Virus record (IMG/VR): IMGVR_UViG_3300037497_000052
Location: 1 to 31,217 of that record
DNA: 31,217 nucleotides
Reading direction: 5' to 3' (one strand)
Origin: a virus
The number at the start of each line of letters is the position of its first letter. The first letter of the stretch is position 1. The notes beneath the pieces are model-generated. The model was not told the DNA's origin. It saw only the letters and a list, made by a program, of their open reading frames with translations, and did not search any database. This document shows, in pieces, positions 567 through 27,257 of this stretch. The position numbers and the translations under genes were made by a program.

Positions 567-2572
567 GCGACCGAATTTACGATTTTGACCGGGCCATGAT
601 TGGCGGCGCCAAGTCGGACGCCGACCCCGCCGCCCTGCCCGCCGGGTTCTATTGGATGGGCATCAACGTCGTGAACACGGGCGGGCTTCCGGGCTGCCGT
701 CCCGGGTTCGACTGCGTGGTGCGCTTCCCGGACGGCAAGATGCAAGGCGGCGCATTCTTCCGGCCCAAGATTGGCTTGGAGCAGGTCGTTGTCGTCATCG
801 ACGGAAACGTCTATGCCGCCGAGTTCCCCTTCAAGAACTTCCGCGCGCTCCCGGGCATTCGCCTGTCTGAAACGGCCAAGCAAGTTTTCTTCTGTCTGAC
901 GGAGCAAGCCGCGCGCCGGGTCACGACCGATTTGGAATCCGCCATTGAACTGATTACCCCTCGAAATGTCCTCCTCATCCAAGACGGCGGCCAGTCCGCC
1001 CCGGTGTGGTTCGACGGCTCGCAAGCGGGGCAGGACCGTAACAATCAGTATGGCATCCCCGCAGGCGGTCCGATGGTCTGGATTGGCGACCGGCTTTGGG
1101 TATCTAAAGGCAACTACGTTTTCGCCTCGGACATCGCAAACCCATTCAGCTTTCGCGAGCAAGTTTACCTCGGCGGCACCAGCGCCTTTGTCTTCCGTCG
1201 TGAAATAACCGCGATGGCGGCCTCCCCGGAGACCGAAGCCCCGCTCTTGCTCGTCTTCACCGATGAGAATTGCGAGTCCGTCGCCGCGAGCATCCGGGAC
1301 CGGGACTCGTGGGCGGCCACGCCAAACTTTCAATCGCCCGTGTTCGATGTTGGGTGCGTTTCCCAGCGGTCAGTTGTCAACCAGTTCGGCCAACTCATCT
1401 GGTTTTCCACGGCGGGCGTTACGTTCTTCGATGCCGCGGTTGCCTCCAAGCACGAATCCCGTCTTCCTGTCCGGGACTCCGAGATGGCCGTGAGCAAGGC
1501 GCAACTCTCTGGCGACCTCAGCCTGATTGCCGGCGGTTCCTTCGGCCCCTTTATGCTGATGAGCGTTCCGGCGGCCGACCGCTACAACGCGCATACGTGG
1601 GTTCTGAACAACGCGCCCATCGAATCGGTGGGCGGCGCCACTCCGGCGGCGTGGTGTGGCTACTGGCTCGGTGTGCGGCCCGTGGAGTGGCTCTACGGCG
1701 TCGTGGCGGGCGAGGAGCACGCATACTGCCTGTCGGTGGACACCGATGGAGCAAACCGGCTCTGGGAGGGTTTTCGACCCCACCGGCTCGACAATGGCTG
1801 CCCTATCACATGGGCAGTTTACTCGCGCGGCTACTTCGGCGACGGCGCTGGGCAGATGCCCGGAAAGCTCCCCGGCGGCCCGTGCCGGTTCGCGACCTCG
1901 GACCTCGCGCTGTGCAACATCGAAGACGACTTGGACCTTGCGGTCTTTGTGGCCCCGGTTGCCCGCGGGTCTTTCCGCCGAATCTACACGAAATCGTTCA
2001 AGGTGTCCCGGGGAATGATACAGCCGGACATCCCGATTCTGACGGACACGGACCTCTTCGCCTACAAGCCGCAGAGCCGGCGATTCCGAACGGCGGATGC
2101 GCGGCAGTGTGAGACAGACCCGGTAGAAGAGGGTTGCCCTGTGGAAGCTGGAGAACTTCAAGATGTCGATGACGCTTTTCAGTTACTTATTGTGGGAAGC
2201 GGACCCGCTACGCTTCGATGGACGCGCCCTCAAGCCCAGCCGGAGAAAGAGGACGCCTACGCCGACGGAGACGCATTCGACAGCGAAACGAAGCCAAACG
2301 GAGTCCGGTTCGACGGTGTTTCTGCCTCGGCCGACACGGAGCAGGAAATCGCGGATTCTCTTACCGCCTTTCCCTTCTCCGAGTTCACCGCCGCCCGGAT
2401 TGTCACTCTGACGGCTTTCGGGATTACCGCCACGGGAGTCGGCTCGGCGACCAATCCAATCTCGCAGGCATCGGTGGACCGCGTGGCCGACCGGATTGCG
2501 GAGCGGGATGCCGCCAACGGAATTCAGCAGGCAGCGCCTCCCATCTACAGCCTTAGCGGGGTGATAACATGA
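563..2572 (+). CDS. Large tail hub/nozzle-like structural protein (T7 gp12 / P22 gp10 position)
   Basis: 669 residues from the GTG at 563, whose GTGA overlaps the previous stop. An ATG at 596 is the alternative start. The N-terminus has the layout typical of podoviral tail hub and stabilisation proteins: a short acidic leader, then LPAGFYWMGINVV, GLPGCRPGFD and a PDGKMQGGAFF segment. Many short beta-strands ending in aromatic residues follow (MVWIGDRLWVS, WLYGVVAGEEHAYCLS), as expected of a beta-propeller. The last 120 residues are acidic and helical (IADSLTAFPFSEFTAARIV, ASVDRVADRIAERDA) and may contact the next tail protein. No membrane segment or signal peptide is visible. The hub role is inferred from gene order, size and the N-terminal pattern; a structure prediction showing a propeller would confirm it. 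Confidence 0.75.
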   Translation: MSDRIYDFDRAMIGGAKSDADPAALPAGFYWMGINVVNTGGLPGCRPGFDCVVRFPDGKMQGGAFFRPKIGLEQVVVVIDGNVYAAEFPFKNFRALPGIRLSETAKQVFFCLTEQAARRVTTDLESAIELITPRNVLLIQDGGQSAPVWFDGSQAGQDRNNQYGIPAGGPMVWIGDRLWVSKGNYVFASDIANPFSFREQVYLGGTSAFVFRREITAMAASPETEAPLLLVFTDENCESVAASIRDRDSWAATPNFQSPVFDVGCVSQRSVVNQFGQLIWFSTAGVTFFDAAVASKHESRLPVRDSEMAVSKAQLSGDLSLIAGGSFGPFMLMSVPAADRYNAHTWVLNNAPIESVGGATPAAWCGYWLGVRPVEWLYGVVAGEEHAYCLSVDTDGANRLWEGFRPHRLDNGCPITWAVYSRGYFGDGAGQMPGKLPGGPCRFATSDLALCNIEDDLDLAVFVAPVARGSFRRIYTKSFKVSRGMIQPDIPILTDTDLFAYKPQSRRFRTADARQCETDPVEEGCPVEAGELQDVDDAFQLLIVGSGPATLRWTRPQAQPEKEDAYADGDAFDSETKPNGVRFDGVSASADTEQEIADSLTAFPFSEFTAARIVTLTAFGITATGVGSATNPISQASVDRVADRIAERDAANGIQQAAPPIYSLSGVIT

Positions 2573-3714
2573 GCCGCGTATTTTCCTACCTCGACGTGAT
2601 GGCTATGCGAATCGTTCCGCTTCGCTATTCGGCCCCGCCCATCTGCCTTTACGCTTTCTCCAGCACTGGCTCGCAGACGGTAGTGCTGGCCCCCCTTGAG
2701 TTCAAGAGCGGGCCAACCGGTCTGTCGGTGAATCGCATTGGCGGCGGCCTCCATCTGTCGTGGGGCTCGTATCCGGGAGTCATCTGTTACACTGTTTACA
2801 AGCTGGAAGACCCGAACAATCCGCTCAGTCCCTACGTGGTAGTTGCCCAGTGCATCGAGGACACTACCATCACCATCCCAGAGACGGGTTGCGAGACTTA
2901 CATCGTGACTGCCCTCACCCCGGATGGCGAATCCCAGTCTTCCGAGACGTTCACCGTCGGGCCGGATTGTCTGGCACAAATTTTCTGGAACTCAGAGCAG
3001 TCGGTGGTCATCCCCTGCCCGGTCGGAACCACGGGGGCCGACGGGGGCTACACCACGGCAGCGGACCTGTTTGGAGCCAACTCGCAGGCGGTTGCCGACG
3101 CCAATGCGCTCGCCTACGCCAACGCGAACCTTGTGCAGCCCACCTGCGTCCCGGATGGCGGTGGCGGCGGTCCGCTGGTGTATTCCTTCGCGTTCAACCC
3201 CATGACCCAGCCGGCGGCCTGCCTCGGGTCCATGTTCGCCAGTGAGACCTCGCTGGTCCACACCGGGCCGGATTCTCCGGTCCTTCCGTTGCTCTGGTCC
3301 TACGTCGGGGACATCCCGGACGGAATGGTTCTCGCGCTGGACGAAGACGATTTTCTGGGCGGTCGCGGATTTTGGCTGGATGGGGTTCCCACCAACACCG
3401 GGGTTTACGATTTCTCAGTCGCCGTGTCGGACAGCGCGGTCCCGGCATATTCCACCATTCGGGATTACACCTTTGTCGTGGCGGAGATAGACAACGCGGC
3501 CACCCTCACGGCGGCCACGGAGGCAGTTCCCTACTCCGTAACTCTCACCCAGACCGGTGCAGTTCCTCCGGTCACGGTAAGCTGGGCGGTAACATCCGGC
3601 GTGTTGCCAGATGGACTTACTCTCGACTCCGCCACTGGAGAAATCTCCGGGACACCGACCGTTCCGGGAGTCTTCGTGTTCACTGTCACTCTATCCGGGG
3701 ACATCCCTGTCTGA
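2569..3714 (+). CDS. Ig-like tail surface protein with FN3, cysteine-repeat and He_PIG-type modules
   Basis: 381 residues; the ATG at 2569 overlaps the previous stop as ATGA. Three kinds of module are visible. Residues about 45-130 look like a fibronectin type III or Ig sandwich (GGGLHLSWGSYPGVICYTVYK). Residues about 140-195 contain an IPCPVGTTG stretch followed by SQAVADANALAYANA and a cysteine, the layout of DUF5977-like repeats. After a short Gly linker come two putative Ig (He_PIG-like) domains; the second carries LPDGLTLDSATGEISGTP, a strong signature of that family. Ig-like domains on tailed phage virions usually decorate the surface and bind weakly to cell-surface sugars. The position between the hub and the collar-like gene fits a tail appendage. 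The exact role is not known. Confidence 0.75.
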   Translation: MSRVFSYLDVMAMRIVPLRYSAPPICLYAFSSTGSQTVVLAPLEFKSGPTGLSVNRIGGGLHLSWGSYPGVICYTVYKLEDPNNPLSPYVVVAQCIEDTTITIPETGCETYIVTALTPDGESQSSETFTVGPDCLAQIFWNSEQSVVIPCPVGTTGADGGYTTAADLFGANSQAVADANALAYANANLVQPTCVPDGGGGGPLVYSFAFNPMTQPAACLGSMFASETSLVHTGPDSPVLPLLWSYVGDIPDGMVLALDEDDFLGGRGFWLDGVPTNTGVYDFSVAVSDSAVPAYSTIRDYTFVVAEIDNAATLTAATEAVPYSVTLTQTGAVPPVTVSWAVTSGVLPDGLTLDSATGEISGTPTVPGVFVFTVTLSGDIPV

Positions 3715-3715
3715 T

Positions 3716-4231
3716 ATGATTTTTCCCCTTTGTGAAAAAGAGTTTTCCATCACCGTCGCGGGAACGGGAGAATTCTTCAATCTGGAAGCGCACACTGCTT
3801 ACGCTTGGTGCGACAATGACCCGGTTCCGCTCTACGCGGCGACCATCGGTATCGGTATTTCTTCCTCCTTTGTATCACAGCAGGATGCGGAAGACGTGGC
3901 CTGCGCGGCAGCCCGAGCGGCTCTTACCGCGTCAATGCCCGGCCACTGCGCGAACTTCACCCTTGCCGCGGGGTGCAATAGCTCTCCCCCTTTGTATAGC
4001 AATGTTGCCGTCGCTGGTCTGGTTTACTACTGCGATGGTGATTGCGGAAACATTGGCAAGTTTCTGACGGGCACCTGCGTCGCCGCGGATAGCTACTACT
4101 CCCGGATTTCTCAGGTGGACGCAGATGCACAGGCGCAAGCCTTCCACCAGTATCTTGTGGATTTCGTCGCGAACGACGGGGCCGCTGAGTGCTTCCCCAA
4201 CGGACCGCCGTCCTCCTGCGGAGCTTGCTGA
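3716..4231 (+). CDS. Cysteine-rich repeat protein, tail-associated, unknown function
   Basis: 171 residues. The ATG at 3716 follows the previous stop after a single base (TGATATG). An open frame extends upstream to 3611, but that stretch lies inside the previous gene, so the ATG at 3716 is preferred. The protein contains two copies of a module that ends in a helix beginning SQ-x-DA and closing on a cysteine: FVSQQDAEDVACAAARAAL near residue 60 and RISQVDADAQAQAFHQYLV near residue 140. The same module occurs once in the preceding gene. Cysteines are frequent (WCDND, AGCNSS, YYCDGDC, SSCGAC at the C-terminus), suggesting disulfides in a secreted or virion-surface setting. There is no recognisable signal peptide. 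Probably a tail appendage partner of the preceding protein. Confidence 0.65.
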   Translation: MIFPLCEKEFSITVAGTGEFFNLEAHTAYAWCDNDPVPLYAATIGIGISSSFVSQQDAEDVACAAARAALTASMPGHCANFTLAAGCNSSPPLYSNVAVAGLVYYCDGDCGNIGKFLTGTCVAADSYYSRISQVDADAQAQAFHQYLVDFVANDGAAECFPNGPPSSCGAC

Positions 4232-4259: not shown

Positions 4260-5084
4260 ATGAGCCTTCTCGACACAAATCTGCTGGTGCAAATGGCCCG
4301 GCTTCCGGTGGATTTCCGCGGAAGCCCGCAAGACCTCGCGGACACGATGGTCGGCAACATGCGCATCGTCTCCCCGGTGGGCACGAACTTTTTTGTCGTC
4401 GGCGACATCGAACCGACCAGCAATGTCGGCCCGTGGTTGAAGTCCGGCCGAAGCTGGTGGACGTGGAGCGAGTCCATCAAGCGGTATGCCCCGCAGGACA
4501 TCACGGAGTCGGAGAAAAACTGGTTCTGGGCAGGCGTTGATGTGCCTACCTCGACGCCCCCGCTGATTTGGCTGGAGACGAACGCCTCGGGCCGCGCGAC
4601 GGGCTGGAAGTATTTCAACGCCACGCTGAACGTCTGGGAGTTCTTCGCCGGCCCGGTGCTGGCTGGCCCCGGCGGTGTAAACGGCGCCGACCGCCCCACC
4701 AGTCCCGCCGAGTATCAGCAATTTTTCGACACCGACCTCTCGGTCCTGCTCTGGCAGGAGCGCGGTAAATGGCGCACGGTGTCCGGCGTCCCCGGCGACA
4801 TCAAGGCCGTTTTCTTTGACACGCTGGCCGAGGCGCTGGAGCACAATCCGGGCTGGGTCTATTTCGGCGAAACTGGCGCAGCCTCCGGCTTCCGTGGGCG
4901 CATCATCATGGGTGCTACCAAGGACTCGGGAGCTTCCCCCGAAGCCGCGTATGCGCCGCCGAACGACGTAGCGGCCCGGGCGAACAAGGAGACCTTCGGC
5001 GAGACCGACGGCATCACCATGTCCACGACCTCGCCCGTCCCGCTGCCGCCGCAGGTTGCCTTGTGGCATCTCATCAAGGAATAA
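4260..5084 (+). CDS. Tail collar/fibre-like protein
   Basis: 274 residues from the ATG at 4260, 28 bases after the previous stop and with no Shine-Dalgarno sequence. The central part is rich in Trp and Phe (GRSWWTWSESIKRYAP, EKNWFWAGVDV, WKYFNATLNVWEFFAG). Residues about 175-225 follow the layout of the phage tail collar domain found in fibres and microcystin-dependent proteins: a PGDIKAVFF strand, then NPGWVYFGETG, then FRGRIIMGATKDS. The C-terminus ends PLPPQVALWHLIKE, similar to the tail end of that family. The neighbours are the Ig/cysteine-repeat proteins upstream and the internal virion genes downstream. Receptor recognition or attachment of a fibre are both possible. The family assignment is by eye. 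Confidence 0.65.
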   Translation: MSLLDTNLLVQMARLPVDFRGSPQDLADTMVGNMRIVSPVGTNFFVVGDIEPTSNVGPWLKSGRSWWTWSESIKRYAPQDITESEKNWFWAGVDVPTSTPPLIWLETNASGRATGWKYFNATLNVWEFFAGPVLAGPGGVNGADRPTSPAEYQQFFDTDLSVLLWQERGKWRTVSGVPGDIKAVFFDTLAEALEHNPGWVYFGETGAASGFRGRIIMGATKDSGASPEAAYAPPNDVAARANKETFGETDGITMSTTSPVPLPPQVALWHLIKE

Positions 5085-5548
5085 TGGCGCTCCGCACCCG
5101 GCGCCTTTTTCCGTTCGAGTTCGGCCCGTATTGGCGGACGCTGGCCCCGCAGATTGACGCCTCGGTGAAGTATCACGGGAAGATGGACCCGGAGCACACC
5201 GTCGGGACGATGCTGCCGCTGCTGGAAAGCGTCCGGGCGGTGGCCTTTCTGCTCTACGACGACGAGCGACCAACGACCTGCGCGGGGATGCTCTTCGGGT
5301 TCATCGCGCCGAATATGTTCACGGGCGCTCTGGAGGGGCTGGAAGGTGGTTGGTTTGTCGCTCCTTGCGTCCGCCGGAGAAATTCAGCACTTCTTTTGCT
5401 GAAGGCGTTCGAGGAGTTCGCCAAGACCGCCGGCTGCATCCGCGTGCTGTCCGGCTCGACAATTTCGCATAGAGCGGGAGCGATGAGCCGGCTCTATCGG
5501 CGGCTCGGGTATCAGCCTCACGCGGAGGCATTCAGCAAGGAATTGTAA
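5084..5548 (+). CDS. GNAT-like internal virion protein (T7 gp13 position)
   Basis: 154 residues. The ATG at 5084 shares its first base with the previous stop (TAATG), and AAGGAA just upstream is one of the few good ribosome-binding sites in the window. The fold pattern is that of a GNAT acetyltransferase: beta strands around AVAFLLYDD and GMLFGFIA, then GGWFVAPCVRRRNSALLLLKAFEEFAKTAGC, then a final strand-helix (MSRLYRRLGYQP). The acetyl-CoA loop is degenerate (RRRNSA where R-x-x-G-x-G/A is expected), so catalysis is doubtful. T7 gp13 and its relatives (DUF2833) are GNAT-like and sit in the same place, directly before the gp14-type core protein; they are needed for assembly of the internal core. 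That role is inferred here from fold and position. Confidence 0.7.
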   Translation: MALRTRRLFPFEFGPYWRTLAPQIDASVKYHGKMDPEHTVGTMLPLLESVRAVAFLLYDDERPTTCAGMLFGFIAPNMFTGALEGLEGGWFVAPCVRRRNSALLLLKAFEEFAKTAGCIRVLSGSTISHRAGAMSRLYRRLGYQPHAEAFSKEL

Positions 5549-9108: not shown

Positions 9109-9131
9109 TAGCCCTTGACCCGACGAGATTT

Positions 9132-9159
9132 TTCTGGCACTCTTTTGAGTATGCCAGAA
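9132..9159 (+). promoter_or_regulatory. Hairpin covering the giant gene's start codon
   Basis: TTCTGGCA (9132-9139) pairs perfectly with TGCCAGAA (9152-9159) across a 12-base loop. The ATG of the giant gene is 9151-9153, so its T and G are inside the stem and its A is the last loop base. In mRNA this could keep the start closed. The gap before it (9109-9150) also holds a TTGACC at 9115-9120, but no good -10 box follows. Eight-base arms at this spacing occur by chance a few times in a window of this size; only the position makes it notable. Confidence 0.4.
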
Positions 9160-12100
9160 TCTTTGTCCCCCGAAACGCCGCCCGAAGGATACCGCCTCGC
9201 CACGCCCGAGGAAAACGCGGAGCTTTCCAAGCTCGACACCGCTCCTGCGGCTGGTGGTCCTCCCCCGGGCTACGAAGAAGTGGGGGCCGCCGACCTTCCC
9301 GATGAGGTTCTCCGTGCGGAGGCTCTCGCCGGCAACCTCAGTCCGGCCCAGATAGCTCGGGAGAACCGGGAACGGTATCAGACAGACCCCGTATTCAAGA
9401 AGCGGCTGGCCGATGCCATGTTCGCGACCGAGGAACAGGGATTTCAGCTTTCCGACTTGAGTCTCCCGGACATGGCCAAGGGCGCCGCCCACATGGGCAA
9501 GAGCTTGGTCGAATACACCGCACAAGTTCCCCTCACTCTCCCGGGCGTTCCGGCGACGGCCAACGCAATCCGAAATTTCCTGAAACGCTGGGACACCAGC
9601 GACGCCGCGATTGACGCTTCCACCAAAGAGGGCGGAACGGTATTTGCCGCTCCACTCATCAAGGGAGCACTCCACAAACTGAACGAAGTCGCCGACTCGA
9701 TGGTCAAGCCGAAGTTGATTGCGGCCACCGAAGGCGCGCAGGTGGGCATGGCGGAACTGGTCAAAAAGGGTGCCCGCAAAGCGGCGAACCTTGTTGATTT
9801 CGACGGCAAGACGGATGAGGAACGTGCCGCCCGGCTGGATGACGCCATCGAATCCGCGGACATGATGGAAGGCATCTCCAAGGGTGAGGGCGTTTGGACG
9901 CAGCGCCTTCAGGGCAAGCATCTCGACGAGATGAAAAAGAAGGGCGTCAAGCTGGACCCGCAGACCGTCAGTGAACTCATGGCGGGCGACCCGCTTACTT
10001 TCTACGGATTCGGGAAGGCGTTCGGGGCGGGGACGGCACTTATCGGTGCTTCGGGCCGGGTGATTGCGCGGGCGCCCACGTTCGCCGCAGCGCAGGCGAC
10101 CAAGAACGCTTTGCGGACGGCGCAGGTTGCCAAGCTCTCTGCCGACGCCCGCCTCGCCGGAATCGCGTCCGCTGAGAATGCCACCGCAGCCGAAGCAGCA
10201 GCCGCGAATCTTCGGGCGGCCAAAGCGGGCATGACCCCCACCGCCAAGCTTTTCGCGGGGGCCGAAGATTTGGCTGGTGGGATAAAGACCATACCGCAAA
10301 AGCTGGTTGGCGCAAGCTTCTGGTCGGCTGGAAAGACGGGAGAACTGGTGGCGACCGTCGCCAAATGGGCAGGAAAAGCAGCCCCGGCTATCGGGCTGGT
10401 CAAAGGCTTTGCAGAAGGCGGTCCCATCGGCGCACTGGCCGGACTCAAGGCCGGCGAAATGTCGGGGAAACTCATTCAGGCAGGCGCTATCCGGGCGGGC
10501 GTGCGTACGGCCAAGGTCAGCAACTTCGGAAAATCCGTTTACAAAGACGCGGCCACGACTCCCGCACAGCAGGCGACCATCGACCTCGCGGCGGGCGCTG
10601 GCAAGGTAGCGGGGGGAGCCTCCAAGGGTCTTGCCATCGACCTCGGTGTCGGCGCGGCGACCTCTGAGAGTCCTGAAGACACGCGCGGCATCACTCCGCT
10701 GGGCGCTATCTTCGGCGCGGCCCACGCGGTTCCCGGCTCGGCTCGTCATTTTCTACAGAATCAGCTTCTCGCCCCGCGAAACTGGGCGGACACGAAGCCT
10801 ACGGCAACGAAGCCCTACGGAAATTTTCCGACGCTCGACGCTCTGCACGCGGAGGCTCAAGGAATCGCGTCTGAGGGCGTCAAGCAGCGCCTCGGCGCCC
10901 TGCGCACGTTCATGGACCCTACGGGGGTGGAAATCTACCAGATGCCCAGTCGCGGCGCACTGGAGAGCTTCCTAGTGGAGCAGTTCCAGAGCGAGGGGAT
11001 GACCGGAGGCGACGCACTGGCACAGGCCAAGGAATTCGCGGGGAACGCCGGTCTGTTTACACGGCTTACCGACTCCACCGGCAAAGTCCGCCGGGTGGGG
11101 CTTCTGGTTGACCCTGCCCCCGCGCCGCACGAAGCTTTTCATGGGCTGGAAGACGTTCTTGGAGCTCCGGCAGCGGAAGCCCTCCGGGACATGGCGGCCA
11201 AAGAGTATGGCCCGCGCTGGAACATCGAGGGGCGATATTATGCCAACCGGCTCGCCGGCCCGACCGGAGGACTGAAACCCTACCTACAACGGGGCGAAGA
11301 CTGGCAGCACGCCATGCTTGACGCCTCGGGCGGCGGGGATTCCACGGCTCGCTCGGTTCTGGCCGCGCGCGAATTCAAGGCGAAGCGAGACGCGGGAGCG
11401 CCCATTACGCCGGAGCAAGCACTGGAAGCCGCCGACGCGCAACTGAAGGCGATTCCCGAAGGCTGGCGAAAAGTCCTTAGCCCGGAGCACATCGAATCCG
11501 CCGCCGGGCGGTATCTCGCCTCGGAGCTTGTCGCCGAGAATTTCGACACCCTTTTCAAGCACGAGAATCCGGGGAAGCCCTCCGGGAAGTCTTTGCCGGA
11601 GCGATTCGGCCGCATCTTGGCCAACCTCTTCGAGTCAGCGGGGGCAGACCCCTACACCGGGGCGGAATCGGAAGGACTGCGAGTGCAGCCGAAGCGCAGC
11701 GTGATGCAGGCGGTCAAGGAAGTGTCCACGGGCGTCCGGGACATCCTCGGCAAAACGGAGAAGCCGACGCCGGGAGCATCCAAGGCGCCCACGGAGCCGC
11801 CCAAGCCCGGAGCGCCGGAGCCTGTCACCGAGAACCAGACCCGCGCGCAGGAAGCCGCAGCGGCCAGCGGTGACGCTCGGGTTGCCGAGTTGGTGAACCG
11901 CATCGTGGAGAACCAGAAGGCCGGCGATGCGCCGCTTCGCCTGACTTACAAGTCGGTGAAGGGTCTGCCCGGGGGAGCCGCTGAAGCCTTCCGCACCGGC
12001 CGCCGGTCTGAGCAGGAGGCCGCCTACATCAAGGAGGGTCTCTCTTCGATGGACATGGACACGCGCAACGCGGTCCAGAAGATTCACGCGCACACCCGCT

Positions 12101-15100
12101 TCGAGTTCGTGAAGGGTGGGAAAGAAGTCCAATCCATCGGTTACTCGCTGGAAAAACTCGTCGGCAATGTCCAGAGGACCGTCGATTGGATTCGCAAGTC
12201 GGGTAACACCGAACTTGCGAATCAGGTGCCGTATGAACGAAACACCTTCGGCACTTCCCTGTCCGAGACGGGCTGGAACCAATTCATCTCCGACGTGCAG
12301 CGATACGCAGAGAATCAGCAGAAGGGTGGAACCGGTGCTGGCGCAGAGTTGAAGCTCCCGGCCGATGCCGACGCGATGGGCGTCACGGTGCCCGCCTTCG
12401 AGGGCATGGGCGCGATGAAGCCCATCGAACAGGGCAGGGCCGACTTTATCAATATGCTCATGGGCTTCAAGCTGCCCGAGACTACTCGTGTGAGTAGAGC
12501 CGGCGGAACGCCGGGCAACGTGGTGGCACAGCGAATTGCTGGAGCCAATGAGCAGCCTTTCGTCGCACCGCGCGTAAGCGAGCCGGCGACCCCGCGCGGC
12601 GAGGGCAAACCCTTCAAGGGCTTTTCCGAGTCCATCAAGGAAGTCAATCCGGTTCGCCAAGAGTTCGAGGCGAAGGGCTTGCCGGTCAACGAACTGGTGG
12701 AAGTCGTGGAGCGCATCAACCTCAAGCATCTCGACGCGGTTACTGCCGCGCCGGAAGTCGGCTTCAAGGCTGGAGTCACCGACACCATCCGCGCCGGCTT
12801 CATGCCCGAGAAGGCAGCCGACATCATCAAGCTGCCTGCGGAGGCATTCCGCGACGAGACGATTGCTTACAAGGGTAAGAACGGCGGCGGGCTTACCGGC
12901 ATGGCGGTTGACCTCGGGGCCAAGATGACCGAGGCACAGCACGCCGACTTCGCGCAGGGTATGGAGAGCGTCAAGGGGGAGATTAAGTCTCTCATCGACG
13001 CGGGCGAGTTCCAATCGGCGATGGATATGTCGGTCAAGGGCCAGTTCTTCCGTGAGGCGATTGAAGCGGCCACGGGCGGCCCGCCGGCCGAGTTCGTGCG
13101 CCGGAAACTCAACCCGGAATATCGGGGCGCGTTGGAAAAGGGTTCTGAGACCAAGGCTTCGGAGGAAGACTTTGCGCTGGAGAATGATTTTGCCAAACGG
13201 CTGCTCGACGGGTCAGCAAAGATAGAAGAGTTCCCCTACTACAAGGACTACGAACAAACGCTTTCGCAGGAAGCCACCCTGCTGCCCGCGGGTGCCGAGA
13301 AAGTCCTTTTCGTGGGGACCGGTCCAGTTCCTCTCTCCGCGCATCTGCTGGCTCGCGAAGGGAAAAGCGTAACGGGGTTGGAGATTGACCCGGGAGCGGC
13401 GGAGACCGGCCGGAAGGTGCTGGCTAAACTCGACACCCCGGCAAGTGTGCTGGTGGGCGACGCTACCACGTTCAAGAACTTCGGCGACTACGATGCCGTG
13501 GTGCTTGCCCTTGAGGCGGGGGCTACCACGAAACAGAAGAACGGAATCCTCGCCAACATTCGTGAGCAGATGAAGCCGGATGCGGTTCTGTTGGCCCGCG
13601 GCGCGAAGACCGAGGCGGAAGGGTTTCCAACCCTCGGGGATGAGGTCAAGAATTTCAAGGAGACGGGAACGGTTGACACCTTCGGAGGACTGTCCCGGAC
13701 TGCCCGGCTTGAAGTAAAGGCCATGCCGGAGGAAGGCAGCGACCGACCCGCGTTCTACTCCCGCCTTACCCGAACCGTGGAGCAATCGCCGCAAGGCCGG
13801 GCCAGCGGCGCACAGTGGAAGGCCACCATCAAGGGCAGCAAACTCGGGGCAAGCGAGGGCGAGATGGATTTGGTGGGTGTGAGGGACTTGGAAGACGGCA
13901 CGACTTACACCAAGCAGGAAGTGCTGGACTACCTGAAGGCCAATGAAGTAGTGGTGAAGGACGTGACGCTGGGCGAAAAGCCGGAATACAAGTGGTCACA
14001 GACGAACCCGGAAACGGGCAAAGTGTCAGCGGACGTCTATTACTTAAAGGACGCCAACGGAAAAGCACTTAACGGGATGGTTTTTCTTAGCTCTGATAAA
14101 ACGTGGCACGCCCGGTATAAGAATAATGCTACTCTACTGGGATACGACACGCCGCAGGACGCGATGGCTATGCTGGAGGAAGGGTATGGACTTCCGAATG
14201 ATGTTAAAGCCCACTTCTCCAACTACCAGTTGCCCGGCGGGAAGGAAGGCAGCTACCGGGAAGTGCTGTTGACGGTGCCCAGTAACCGCAATTATTCCAC
14301 GGACCCCATCGCCGCCAAGGTGGCTGCAAAGTATGGCATCCCCTATGGGGAAGCGTCCGCGCACAAGCTGGGTGCTGCGGGTGCCGACAATCTGGAAATC
14401 GCAAGTTGGATGGAGGGCACCAACCGAGGTGCCCGGGAAGATTGGAAGGACGGCCACTCGAACTACTCCAGCATCGCCAATCCCATCGTTCGGCTGCGCT
14501 TTAACGAGCGCACCACGGCGGGCGGCAAACGGATGCTTTTTCTGGAGGAAGTGCAAGCTCCGCAAAAGGGCGAGTTCGAGAAGATGCCCAAGCTGTTTCA
14601 GGACAAGTGGCGGGACATCGCATTCAAATGGGCGCTGCGACATGCGGCGGAGAACGGATTCGAGGCCGTGGGCTGGACTACTGGCGAACAGCAGGCCGCT
14701 CGATACGACTTGAGCAAACAAGTCACGGCGGTTCACTACAATTCGGAGTCGCAAAAGCTGACAGCCGAAAATCTGAATGCGCGCGTGCTCAATCAGGAAG
14801 GCGTTACGCAGGAGAAGCTCTCAGATTATATCGGCAAGGATGCCGCGGCCAAGCTGATGACTCAGGCACCCGGCCCGACCGGAATCAGGACGCTGCGCGG
14901 GGACGATTTGAAAGTCGGCGGTGAAGGCTTGGCGAAGCTCTACGATTCTGATTTCCGTAACGTGGTCAACAGCCTGCCCGCGGTGAAGAAATCCGGGCAG
15001 AAGGTGGGGACCAGCCAGATTGTAGATGGGGAAGCGTTCGCAACTGAATCCTTTAACGCCTATCTAAAACGCACAGGACTTTACACGGATGAAGGCAGAG

Positions 15101-18100
15101 CGTCCTATATGCGTGACCGCCTGAAAACACCAGAACCCACCGTCGGGGTTCACAGCCTCGACCTCACCCCCGCCATCCGCGATTCCGTGATGGCCGGACA
15201 AGCGGCATTCATGCCGGAAGGAACGACGGCTCGCACGCTGCCCGTGGAAGGTAAGTCCGAGTTCTGGCTTCGCCCGGATGGGACGGTCCTCCAAGACCCG
15301 AATAAGTCACACGCCCGCATGGGCGCGGATGAACTGGGCCTGAAGAAATACAACGATAACAAGCCGGATGACTACACCGCCGTTTACAATGAGATGTATT
15401 CCAAGGGCTACGTGCGGGGCTACCGGGGCGGTATGGACATCAAGTTGGAGAATCCAGACACCCAGAAGATGAGTCGGGCACAGCGCGCGACGGCGGAGGC
15501 TATCTCCTTCGAGATTGAAGCTCCCGCGCGATTCGGCAGCGAGGCGCAGTTCGGATTCAAGGGCAACGTCGGAAAATTCTTTTCGCCGAACGAACGGGAT
15601 AACCCGGAAGTCACGAAGGTCATGGAGGAGCAGACCCGCCGAAAGACTGGCGAGTTTGACCCGAACCGTCAGGCTGCCGCGATGCCGGAGAAACCGCTGC
15701 GGGAGCCGTCTCCTGCGGATGAGGCCAATGCCGAGGAGCACCGTAAGTCGATGGCTGGCTACGAAGCAAGGGATGCAGCCGACCGAAAGTATTTCCGGGA
15801 CCGCATGGACCGGATGGATTACCTCCGGGGCCAAGCCACGGGCGACATGATTGAAGCAACGGGCGAGGAAGCATGGTATGCCAAGCCCGTCCGGGAGCAG
15901 GAAGCCGCCATTTTCGACCGCATGGTTGAACTCAACGGCGGGAGCGAAAACTTCGACCCTCCCAAGAGGGGTAAGGGTAAGACCCAGTTCATGCCCACCG
16001 CGGATGAGTGGGAAGCCAAGATGGCGGCCATACCAGAGGGCACCGTCTTTACCCGCCCAGTGGAGGAAAAGAATAACCCGAAGGTATTCACCTTGGAGGC
16101 CCGTGACCCGAAGGGACGCCAACTTGGGTATGTCACGAGCAAGCGACTCCGGGATGGGTCCGCGGAAATCACGATGGTTTATGTTGACCCGGAATACCGA
16201 GGACAGGGAATCGGAGAATCTCTCGTGTCGCAAGCGGCGGAGCATTGGATTACTGATGGGGCCACCGCGATTGCCGCGAAGACGGTATCCCCCGAAGGGA
16301 AGCGGCTAATTGAGAAAACCCTCGGCACGGCGGAAGTAGAACTCCCGGAGGGAGAGGCGCGGCGTTACTCGGGGATGGAGGTCTCTCGTTTCATGCCAAC
16401 CGCAGCCGAGTGGGAAGCCAAGATGGCGGCCAAGCGGGGCGCCAACAAGGACAAGGTTGAAGAGGTCGTTCAGGAAGCCGAGGAAGCCATCGGTATCGCC
16501 GGCACAGTGCAACTGAAGCAGGACAAGAAGCTGCCCGGTTCGATGAGCGGCGTGCTGAAGCTGATTCACTTCGGGGCTTCGGGACTCACGGAGACCAACC
16601 CGCAGAAGATGGGTTCCGGGATTGCGACCCCCACGGACATGCAGGGCGCCGCGAAGACCTACTTTTTCAATGAGGGGTCAAAGATGCAGGCGGACATTAC
16701 CCTGCGCGACCGCGGGGGTAAGTATGGCGTCCGGGTTGACGGCAACGGCGTCTATGACTTGAACAAGGACGTGCTGGACATCCTCAGCAATCCGAACCGC
16801 TGGGCGCGGGATGAGACGCTCAAGAAAGCGGGCTACACTGGGTTTCACGTCAACGTCCCGGACGGCCGGGAAGTCACCATCCTCTACAAGCCGGTGGCGG
16901 TGACTCCCATCGACCTTGGGCGGGCCTTCACGCGCGCGGTGTCCGCTCCCGGGTCCAAGTTCATGCCGGAGCAGCAGGATACCTTCCTCGGAGAACTCGG
17001 GCAGGGGCAAAAGGAATACGACCGCGCGGCCCTCAACCGGATGACCGTGGACGACCTGAAGGCACACTATCCCGAGGCCATCGTGGGCCGTCCGAAGGGC
17101 GAGGAGATTTCCTCGAACGTAGAAGGCTCTCCCCTCGCCAAGAAGGCGGGCAGCCGGGAAAAAGCCATCAAGGCTTTTTCCGACAAGCTGGTGGAGTTCT
17201 ACAAACAGAACGAAGGCGACCCGGCGCTGAAGGCAGGCGAGGAGTGGTATTCAAAATTCACCCCGCTGCTCAAGAAGGAGTTTGGAAAGGACGCTCCCAT
17301 CTTCGCCGAGTTGCTCGCGGCGACCAGCCCGCAGACGAACCCGGAGGTCAATTTTGGATTCGCCTACGACGCATACCAGAACTTCAAGTCTGGTAATTTC
17401 GACAAGCAGGTTGCCAAGTTCGTCGAGGGTCTGGCCAAGCTGGACACGGGGGAACTGGCGAAGGTTTACGCCCGGGACCAGAAGGCCGGCAAGACCAAGG
17501 ACAACCCGGCAAACCCTTCGGACGCTACCTATATCGCCCACTGGATTGACAAGCATGACTTGGTTCTGCGCGGCTCTGGGGGGAACCGATTCGGTCTGCA
17601 TTCCGTCCCGGTGCTCCGCGTGCTGGCTCGCAAGTGGCTGGACCTGAATTCGGGTCCGAAGACAGCCAACTTCGTGAAGAACCTCTTGGGCACGGGCGAC
17701 GAAGCGACGATTGACATCTGGGCCGACCGGACCATGCGCCGCGTGGGTTATGAAGGCTTCAAGGACCGCTGGCGGATTCTGCCAGAGAACGTCCAAAGCG
17801 TGACGGAAGCAGACTTCGCGTTTAGTCAGGAGGCGTTTAGCCATGCCGCCGGACAGTTGGGACTCAAGCCCTCCGCCCTTCAGGGTGCGCTCTGGTTCGC
17901 GGAAAAAAAGCTCTGGTCTGACAAGGGATGGGGACGCCTTGACCTCGGGGATTACCGGGCGGAAATGGCGAAGATTCCGCTCCTCAAGCGTGGCGCCGAA
18001 CAACGGCAAGCGCACCAGAAGGCCATGAACAAAGCGAAGACGATGGAGGAGCAGGATTTGTTTCAATCAGGGCTTGACGTAAGGCCAAGGATGAAGCAAA

Positions 18101-26600: not shown

Positions 26601-27257
26601 CTATTCGTCTCCCTCTCCGCCGTCGTCGTCCTTCGGGGGCAGCGGCTTCTCCGACTTCATCTCTCCGTGCTTTGGGCAGTGGGGCAGCCCGACTTCTTCC
26701 ATCCACTTGCGGGACAGGCGAACGGTATATCCGCACTGCGGGCACTCGCACTTGAGTTGCCGGCAGGTGTCTTTCTTGGTCAGCGACTTCATGGAGTCCA
26801 GCTTCCCGTTCGGGTAAGCCCCCAGCTTCTCCGCCCAGCCCTTGATATATTCCAGTAGCTCCGGGCCGGCAAACGTCGCCGTCATCTTTCCGTCGAGGCC
26901 CACGGCCAGCGCGCACTTCTTGAAGACCTTGCCGTGCTTGGCATCCAGTCCGACAACCGCGTGAACAACTTCGTGGACCAGCGTGGCAAGAACATCGTTC
27001 TCGACGGTCACGTTATTGAGCCACGGAGAGATGAAGATTTGAAATTTCTTGTCCGAGGACGCCTCGCTGGCCCAGCACTCGCCGACGCGGCGCTTCTTCG
27101 CAGCCAGACCACTCTTCGAGGGCCAGCCGCAGGCGACCTGCAAGTTCACGGGGACTTCGTAGTCCTTGCCTTTGAACAGCGGAGTCATCAAGGCCACGGC
27201 GGCGAGGAGCCAGCTTTCGCGAGTTGCGTGGGCAGCGGGGATAGGTGTGTCTTTCAT
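26601..27257 (-). CDS. SprT-like zinc metalloprotease
   Basis: 218 residues from the ATG at 27257. The protease motif is HEVVHAVVG (H95, E96, H99) with the third ligand in DAKHGKVF (H108), the SprT/Spartan pattern. A C-terminal zinc ribbon follows (CECPQCGYTVRLSRKW, then LPHCPKHGEM; C170/C172, C175, C194, H197), and an acidic tail (DDDGGEGDE). SprT-like proteins in cells digest DNA-protein crosslinks; phage copies are common but little studied. It is the first gene after a terminator and a candidate promoter, so it may start a transcript that runs through the polymerase. Confidence 0.85.
   Translation of the reverse strand: MKDTPIPAAHATRESWLLAAVALMTPLFKGKDYEVPVNLQVACGWPSKSGLAAKKRRVGECWASEASSDKKFQIFISPWLNNVTVENDVLATLVHEVVHAVVGLDAKHGKVFKKCALAVGLDGKMTATFAGPELLEYIKGWAEKLGAYPNGKLDSMKSLTKKDTCRQLKCECPQCGYTVRLSRKWMEEVGLPHCPKHGEMKSEKPLPPKDDDGGEGDE

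Follow-up and report, generated by a model that had tools for sequence, protein, structure and literature searches.

Bifunctional HhH-GPD DNA glycosylases use a Lys as the nucleophile for both base excision and β-elimination, and AGOG depends on K140 and D172, the counterparts of K249 and D268 in human OGG1 (PMC9638937). Members of OGG2 (MjOgg, SsOgg, and TmOgg) have an all-helical HhH-GPD fold with no Fe-S cluster, a Lys (of GYK) and an Asp (of IDR) separated by 18 residues, and a polar residue four positions before the conserved Trp of the last helix. Endonuclease III (Nth) has a GxKTAN...(V/I)D motif with an 18-residue spacing and an Arg five residues after the Asp (D+5), and it carries a four-Cys 4Fe-4S cluster. 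OGG2-type glycosylases are also present in Fusobacterium and Rhizobium plasmid records; that of the Rhizobium plasmid has the sequence GMGPKQAS, very similar to GPKTA in the protein described below.

Brig1 and T4 endonuclease V are DNA glycosylases that act in phage–host conflict, and the latter does not have the HhH-GPD fold. Brig1 is a monofunctional member of the uracil-DNA glycosylase superfamily (PMC11078745). Phage polyvalent proteins are multidomain, have a zincin-like motif and GNAT and transferase domains, are encoded beside structural genes, and are proposed to enter with the injected DNA and to be cleaved by zincin peptidases (PMC5512222). The main text of the survey of these proteins (Iyer et al. 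2017, PMC5512222) mentions no DNA glycosylase. Lastly, stand-alone proteins of ~200 aa, typified by gp115 of Mycobacterium phage Kumao, belong to DUF7178 (PF23802), which Pfam lists as of "unknown function" and for which our literature search found no naming. In several phages, stand-alone relatives are already annotated as "glycosylase", "N-glycosylase", or "N-glycosylase/DNA lyase".

The window analyzed here, all 31,217 nucleotides of virus record IMGVR_UViG_3300037497_000052 (31.2 kb), has a single plus-strand frame that encodes a giant protein of 2,998 aa from a TTG at 9115, or of 2,986 aa from an ATG 12 codons on (table 1). An HExxH motif and nicotianamine synthase (NAS)-like transferase, GNAT, and predicted HhH-GPD domains are found in this one large protein. 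Relatives encoded in other phage contigs are 2,207–3,058 aa in length, and HExxH[GSA] is at a similar place in 11 of 13 giant proteins. In the window and in a 75-kb relative, the gene comes after virion structural and tail-fiber-like genes on the same strand, and replication genes are on the opposite strand. PHROG and Pfam scans of the 75-kb relative gave no name to most neighbors of the giant gene and did not place terminase or portal. By analogy, this layout is that of phage polyvalent proteins, and we infer, from architecture and gene position only, that the giant protein is probably carried in the virion and delivered with the DNA.

The window has additional features of note. The NAS-like region, an unusual domain for a phage polyvalent protein, has a weak match to the staphylopine enzyme CntL and has little or no coverage among 12 relatives. 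Residues ~2430–2590 (16400–16900, plus strand; LIHFGASGL...), located before the glycosylase domain, are ART-PolyVal-like by eye, and a Pfam search of these residues gave no match. A second GNAT acetyltransferase gene (5063–5548, plus strand) is within the structural gene block. Two adjoining genes (2569–4231, plus strand) match DUF5977, include a putative Ig domain, and are probably tail-fiber/adhesin-like. The replication block includes a gene for a SprT-like metalloprotease (26601–27257, minus strand), and in Microbacterium phage Cece, a SprT-like gene is three genes away from a DUF7178 gene. Proteases of the SprT type act on DNA–protein crosslinks, and a link between the SprT-like protease and base excision is conceivable.

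Table 1. Features of the giant gene and of its C-terminal domain (window coordinates; residues numbered from the TTG unless stated).
Feature	Coordinates	Strand	Basis or remark
Polyvalent-type protein, 2,998 aa	9115..18111	+	Single open frame; alternative ATG at 9151
HEAFH, zincin-like metallopeptidase motif, residue 672	11128..11142	+	In the constant N-terminal part
NAS-like SAM-dependent transferase domain, residues 1349-1498	13159..13608	+	PF03059, E 1.3e-13, above cutoff; in the variable middle
GNAT acetyltransferase domain, residues 2318-2393	16066..16293	+	PF00583, E 1.8e-9; in the variable middle
OGG2-like HhH-GPD domain as modeled, residues 2640-2984	17032..18066	+	AlphaFold2; best PDB matches are DNA glycosylases
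DUF7178, first half	17155..17439	+	HMM profile positions 8-105
SPQTNPEVN element, first helical part	17326..17352	+	S99 and N107 (domain numbering) invariant; S67 and N75 in stand-alone proteins
Insertion of ~64 residues	17440..17631	+	Gap between HMM pieces and in profile alignment; absent from stand-alone DUF7178 proteins
Helix-turn-helix stretch, counterpart of the HhH motif	17593..17688	+	Model helices 188-198, 202-205, and 209-219; aligned to HhH of endonuclease III and OGG2
DUF7178, second half, with catalytic motif	17632..17901	+	HMM profile positions 108-188, E 4.8e-10
Predicted Schiff-base lysine K2849 (K2837 from ATG)	17659..17661	+	Unchanged across all 24 polyvalent and 17 stand-alone sequences; pairs with the OGG2 Lys
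Predicted catalytic aspartate D2867 (D2855 from ATG)	17713..17715	+	Unchanged across all 24 polyvalent and 17 stand-alone sequences; pairs with the Asp of both endonuclease III and OGG2
QGALW motif	17881..17895	+	Q and W invariant in both groups; aligned to M-D-x3-W of OGG2

The C-terminal part of the giant protein matches DUF7178 at 17155–17901 (E of 6.8e-11 for the whole protein; 42.9 bits for the whole protein and 50.7 bits for the domain alone, with a curated cutoff of 27). It also matches PHROG 3842, which likewise carries an "unknown function" label. A preliminary description of the window had placed an HhH-GPD glycosylase-like domain with an intact Lys–Asp pair at 17128–17970, which is essentially the domain recovered here, with the Pfam match in two pieces around an insertion. 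Both motifs, GPKTANFVKN (17653–17682) and TIDIWADR (17707–17730), are in frame in the ORF, and the residue numbers given at that time, K2837 and D2855, hold when counted from the ATG and correspond to K2849 and D2867 from the TTG. By eye, endonuclease III has SAQATDVSVN at a place like that of SPQTNPEVN in the domain. No match to PF00730 (HhH-GPD) was found for the domains at E values up to 10, nor in phage Kumao, and matches to Pfam families besides DUF7178 are weak and at chance level only. Searches of PDB sequences with the window domain, its alignment, and the Kumao protein returned no glycosylase; colicin and chitin synthase were returned and were rejected as chance matches of helices. 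The relation to HhH-GPD is visible solely by profile–profile comparison and fold.

In comparisons with hhalign, stand-alone DUF7178 matches OGG2 with an E of 5.1e-6, and the polyvalent domain (the version in giant proteins) matches OGG2 with an E of 7.3e-4, values limited by the small size of the OGG2 profile (two whole proteins and four PDB fragments). The alignment of the stand-alone family spans the GPK...ID motif and the terminal Q-x3-W, which is matched to D-x3-W of OGG2, and Lys and Asp are in register both in this alignment and in that of the polyvalent domain. Against endonuclease III, the E values are 7e-4 for DUF7178 and 1.6e-3 for the polyvalent domain, the latter again with Lys and Asp in register. 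As a yardstick, the profiles of OGG2 and endonuclease III, a known distant pair, match with an E of 5e-9. Scores against endonuclease III and OGG2 (30.6–41.6) exceed those of all 60 column-shuffled controls in each comparison (maximum of 21.1), and the resemblance is therefore beyond that expected by chance. A narrower, mainly S-CBP2-like subfamily of stand-alone proteins is related to OGG2 weakly by sequence (P of 0.012), but its fold match is the strongest.

Models of both versions of the domain have the two-domain, all-helical glycosylase fold and match glycosylases well above unrelated chains. The AlphaFold2 model of the polyvalent domain (24 sequences; pLDDT 89.0, pTM 0.83) is most similar in the PDB to MjOgg (Z of 10.5, rmsd of 3.7 over 180 residues), with further matches to TmOgg (Z of 9.8), endonuclease III of D. 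radiodurans (7.5), AGOG (6.7), and MutY (6.1). Every PDB chain with a Z of at least 4.9 is an HhH-GPD DNA glycosylase, and the first unrelated chain has a Z of 4.3 over 59 residues. Foldseek matched this model to 3knt with a probability of 0.99, yet with an E of 0.29. Because middling Z scores can arise by chance for helical folds, the test was repeated on the compact stand-alone family (pLDDT 94.7, pTM 0.89). Its model matches MjOgg and SsOgg with a Z of 12.9, all 50 among the PDB matches listed are HhH-type DNA glycosylases or homologues, and Foldseek gave a probability of 1.00 and an E of 0.013. As modeled, the fold of the domain is HhH-GPD, and by predicted fold and sequence profile, the nearest HhH-GPD family is OGG2. 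The preliminary description had likened the domain to endonuclease III; motif, profile, and fold matches bear out this likeness, but OGG2 is nearer, and the analogy has been corrected.

The helix-hairpin-helix anticipated by that description is present in the model around K210 (domain numbering of K2849), as a helix, a short N-S-G turn, and a helix. The hairpin is without the usual G-x-G, which OGG2 has, and its loop is not Pro-rich. K210 is the second residue of the post-turn helix, and D228 is directly before the next helix. The domain shares with OGG2 the fold, the Lys–Asp spacing, the IDxH/IDxW motif, and the polar residue before the last Trp, but the two are only ~10–15% identical, and the domain differs in having the insertion of ~64 residues and a C-terminal extension and in being located in a giant multidomain phage protein. 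Other phage proteins, with names that refer to ART-PolyVal or large-polyvalent-associated domains, are among the viral models that match the fold; hence, fusion to a glycosylase is not unique to this phage group.

Relatives of the domain are encoded by 11 further contigs (35–56% identity), and an alignment search found 35 loci, some of which share contigs. No relatives of the polyvalent version turned up in a scan of genome contigs, and within these data it thus appears to be restricted to phages. The 24 distinct polyvalent domains that were aligned all have the Lys and the Asp at a spacing of 18, together with the Trp at D+2 and the Arg at D+5. Stand-alone proteins are more variable. A total of 128 phage records match Kumao gp115, and 17 homologues were chosen across hosts for alignment (23–52% identical to the first of the set). 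Only 12 positions are invariant among them, and these include the Lys and the Asp. Their spacing ranges from 17 to 21 residues (18 in 9 of 17), residue D+2 is a His in ten, as in endonuclease III and OGG2, and a Trp in seven, as in the window, and the Arg at D+5 is present in just six and is thus not general. Polyvalent and stand-alone domains are homologous (profile comparison, probability of 98.7%, E of 2e-16) and have the same invariant Lys and Asp, but the insertion and all other parts of the polyvalent protein are absent from stand-alone proteins. The two are on separate sides of a tree in which branches are long and the insertion of one group may add to the split. In NCBIfam, a homologue from a Tunturiibacter phage points to N-glycosylase/DNA lyase with an E of 0.16, too weak by itself. 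Two DUF7178 proteins are probably misannotated, gp111 of Tunturiibacter phage Tunturi_3 as "portal protein" and gp106 of Rhodococcus phage Madraxi as "glycosyltransferase".

The active site is predicted to be intact. In all 24 aligned polyvalent sequences, the domain is free of Cys, as expected from the missing 4Fe-4S cysteines reported earlier for the window; this excludes a cluster of the endonuclease III type, and such an absence is normal for OGG2 and AGOG. The residue aligned with K2849 is a Gln in the MjOgg–DNA complex 3knt and a Lys in 3fhf, and thus appears to be the residue that was removed for substrate trapping. Judging from sequence and model, the domain is probably a bifunctional glycosylase/AP lyase in activity. 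Specificity for 8-oxoguanine cannot be assumed, as the domain has the insertion and runs on past W2927 of the conserved Trp motif, whereas OGG2 ends soon after this Trp. Some glycosylase homologues, Mag2 for one, are reported to bind damaged or abasic DNA (4hsb and 4b23 are among the fold matches), and the domain could likewise have lost catalysis and serve in the virion core as a DNA-binding module. This is highly improbable, since all 41 sequences keep the Lys and Asp despite the divergence of the stand-alone proteins, and such residues are normally the first to erode upon loss of function.

The fold could also be used to modify bases rather than to remove them, as may be the case for some thymidine hypermodification enzymes. 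The aGPT-Pplase2 protein, for instance, may have a glycosylase-like fold. It is reported as a component of phage systems for thymidine hypermodification (PMC11955845). Pfam, however, gives the domain no match above chance level but DUF7178, and the invariant Lys–Asp pair is the signature of a glycosylase/lyase. A search of 17 records for Tet/JBP partners in thymidine hypermodification found none, in a setting where controls were also silent and records may be fragments, so that the search was without a positive control. We regard base modification as improbable.

The glycosylase domain is the best-conserved part of the giant protein and is a fixed rather than an exchangeable module. It is present in the giant proteins of all 12 relatives, with 40–66% identity per 60-residue bin across residues 2641–2940, and in all 17 records tested, it sits inside such a long frame. 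The N-terminal part (~421–1320) is moderately conserved across these relatives (27–42% identity per bin), and the middle (1381–2580) is covered by at most one or two of the 12. That the domain is the most constant part while the rest varies suggests that the phage uses it on DNA very early in infection, though its constancy fits any core role and not only repair. One such use is against the host: the injected domain would excise unmodified or host-marked bases and nick the host chromosome, thereby stopping host functions and freeing nucleotides. The domain is bundled with a host-modifying GNAT and a SAM-dependent transferase, a combination seen in polyvalent proteins with a supposed role in attacking the host (PMC5512222), and glycosylases can kill through base excision, as Brig1 does on T4 DNA (PMC11078745). 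Yet it is the module that is fixed and the host-directed middle domains that vary, and an arms race with host DNA marks would favor the opposite. Nor is there a sign, in the empty Tet/JBP search of the 17 possibly fragmentary records, which had no positive control, of a DNA modification by which the phage would protect itself. We therefore consider a host target fairly unlikely.

Many stand-alone homologues are encoded near the ends of linear phage genomes, in roughly the outermost tenth at either side. The early genes of such phages are often near genome ends, and the position fits action on DNA at the outset of infection. Such an early-arm position, along with the association with polyvalent proteins that bear counter-defense domains (PMC5512222), could also be taken to suggest that the target is a modified base to be excised, or a DNA mark to be processed, that host defense recognizes or makes on the incoming genome. 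However, the hosts of phages with stand-alone DUF7178 proteins are wide-ranging and unrelated, from Mycobacterium to Prochlorococcus, which favors a general substrate such as DNA damage and makes counter-defense quite unlikely. Likewise, a fixed module in a family spread across phages of many hosts is better fit by a general substrate, such as oxidized purines, than by a target of an arms race.

Of the three roles raised in the preliminary description, namely attack on host DNA, repair of incoming DNA, and removal of modified bases, repair is the most likely. We infer, with somewhat better than even confidence, that the C-terminus is an OGG2-like glycosylase/AP lyase that is probably carried in the virion and most likely functions in base-excision repair of the incoming phage genome. 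In the proposed mechanism, the giant protein would enter the cell with the DNA, and the glycosylase domain would perhaps be released by the zincin-like peptidase of the same chain. K2849, at the start of the post-hairpin helix, would act as the nucleophile at C1' of a damaged or modified nucleotide, assisted by D2867. The base would be removed, a Schiff base would form with the sugar, and the strand would be nicked by β-elimination. The most likely job is the repair of the entering phage genome by base excision, with oxidized purines as the first candidate substrate.

The superfamily and its fold have long been known. What appears to be new, from sequence profiles and models, is the assignment of DUF7178 to the OGG2 side with a predicted intact active site, and a glycosylase fixed at the C-terminus of giant polyvalent-type proteins, in a group of uncultured phages, looks undescribed. 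A broader proposal, which we hold more tentatively, is that in this group of uncultured 70–75 kb phages, an injected base-excision enzyme is the one obligatory C-terminal module of the giant polyvalent protein and acts, ahead of any phage gene expression, on either the incoming genome or host DNA, and that the whole of DUF7178 comprises phage-specific OGG2-like glycosylases. A family listed by Pfam as unknown and present in phages of many hosts thus gains a fold, a predicted active site, and a testable chemistry. A predicted DNA glycosylase, apparently not described before in this setting, is added to the functions of giant phage proteins that are proposed to enter the cell along with the genome, as a fixed module and not as variable cargo. 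If the enzyme is active, these phages would bring a ready-made DNA repair or DNA-attack enzyme into the cell.
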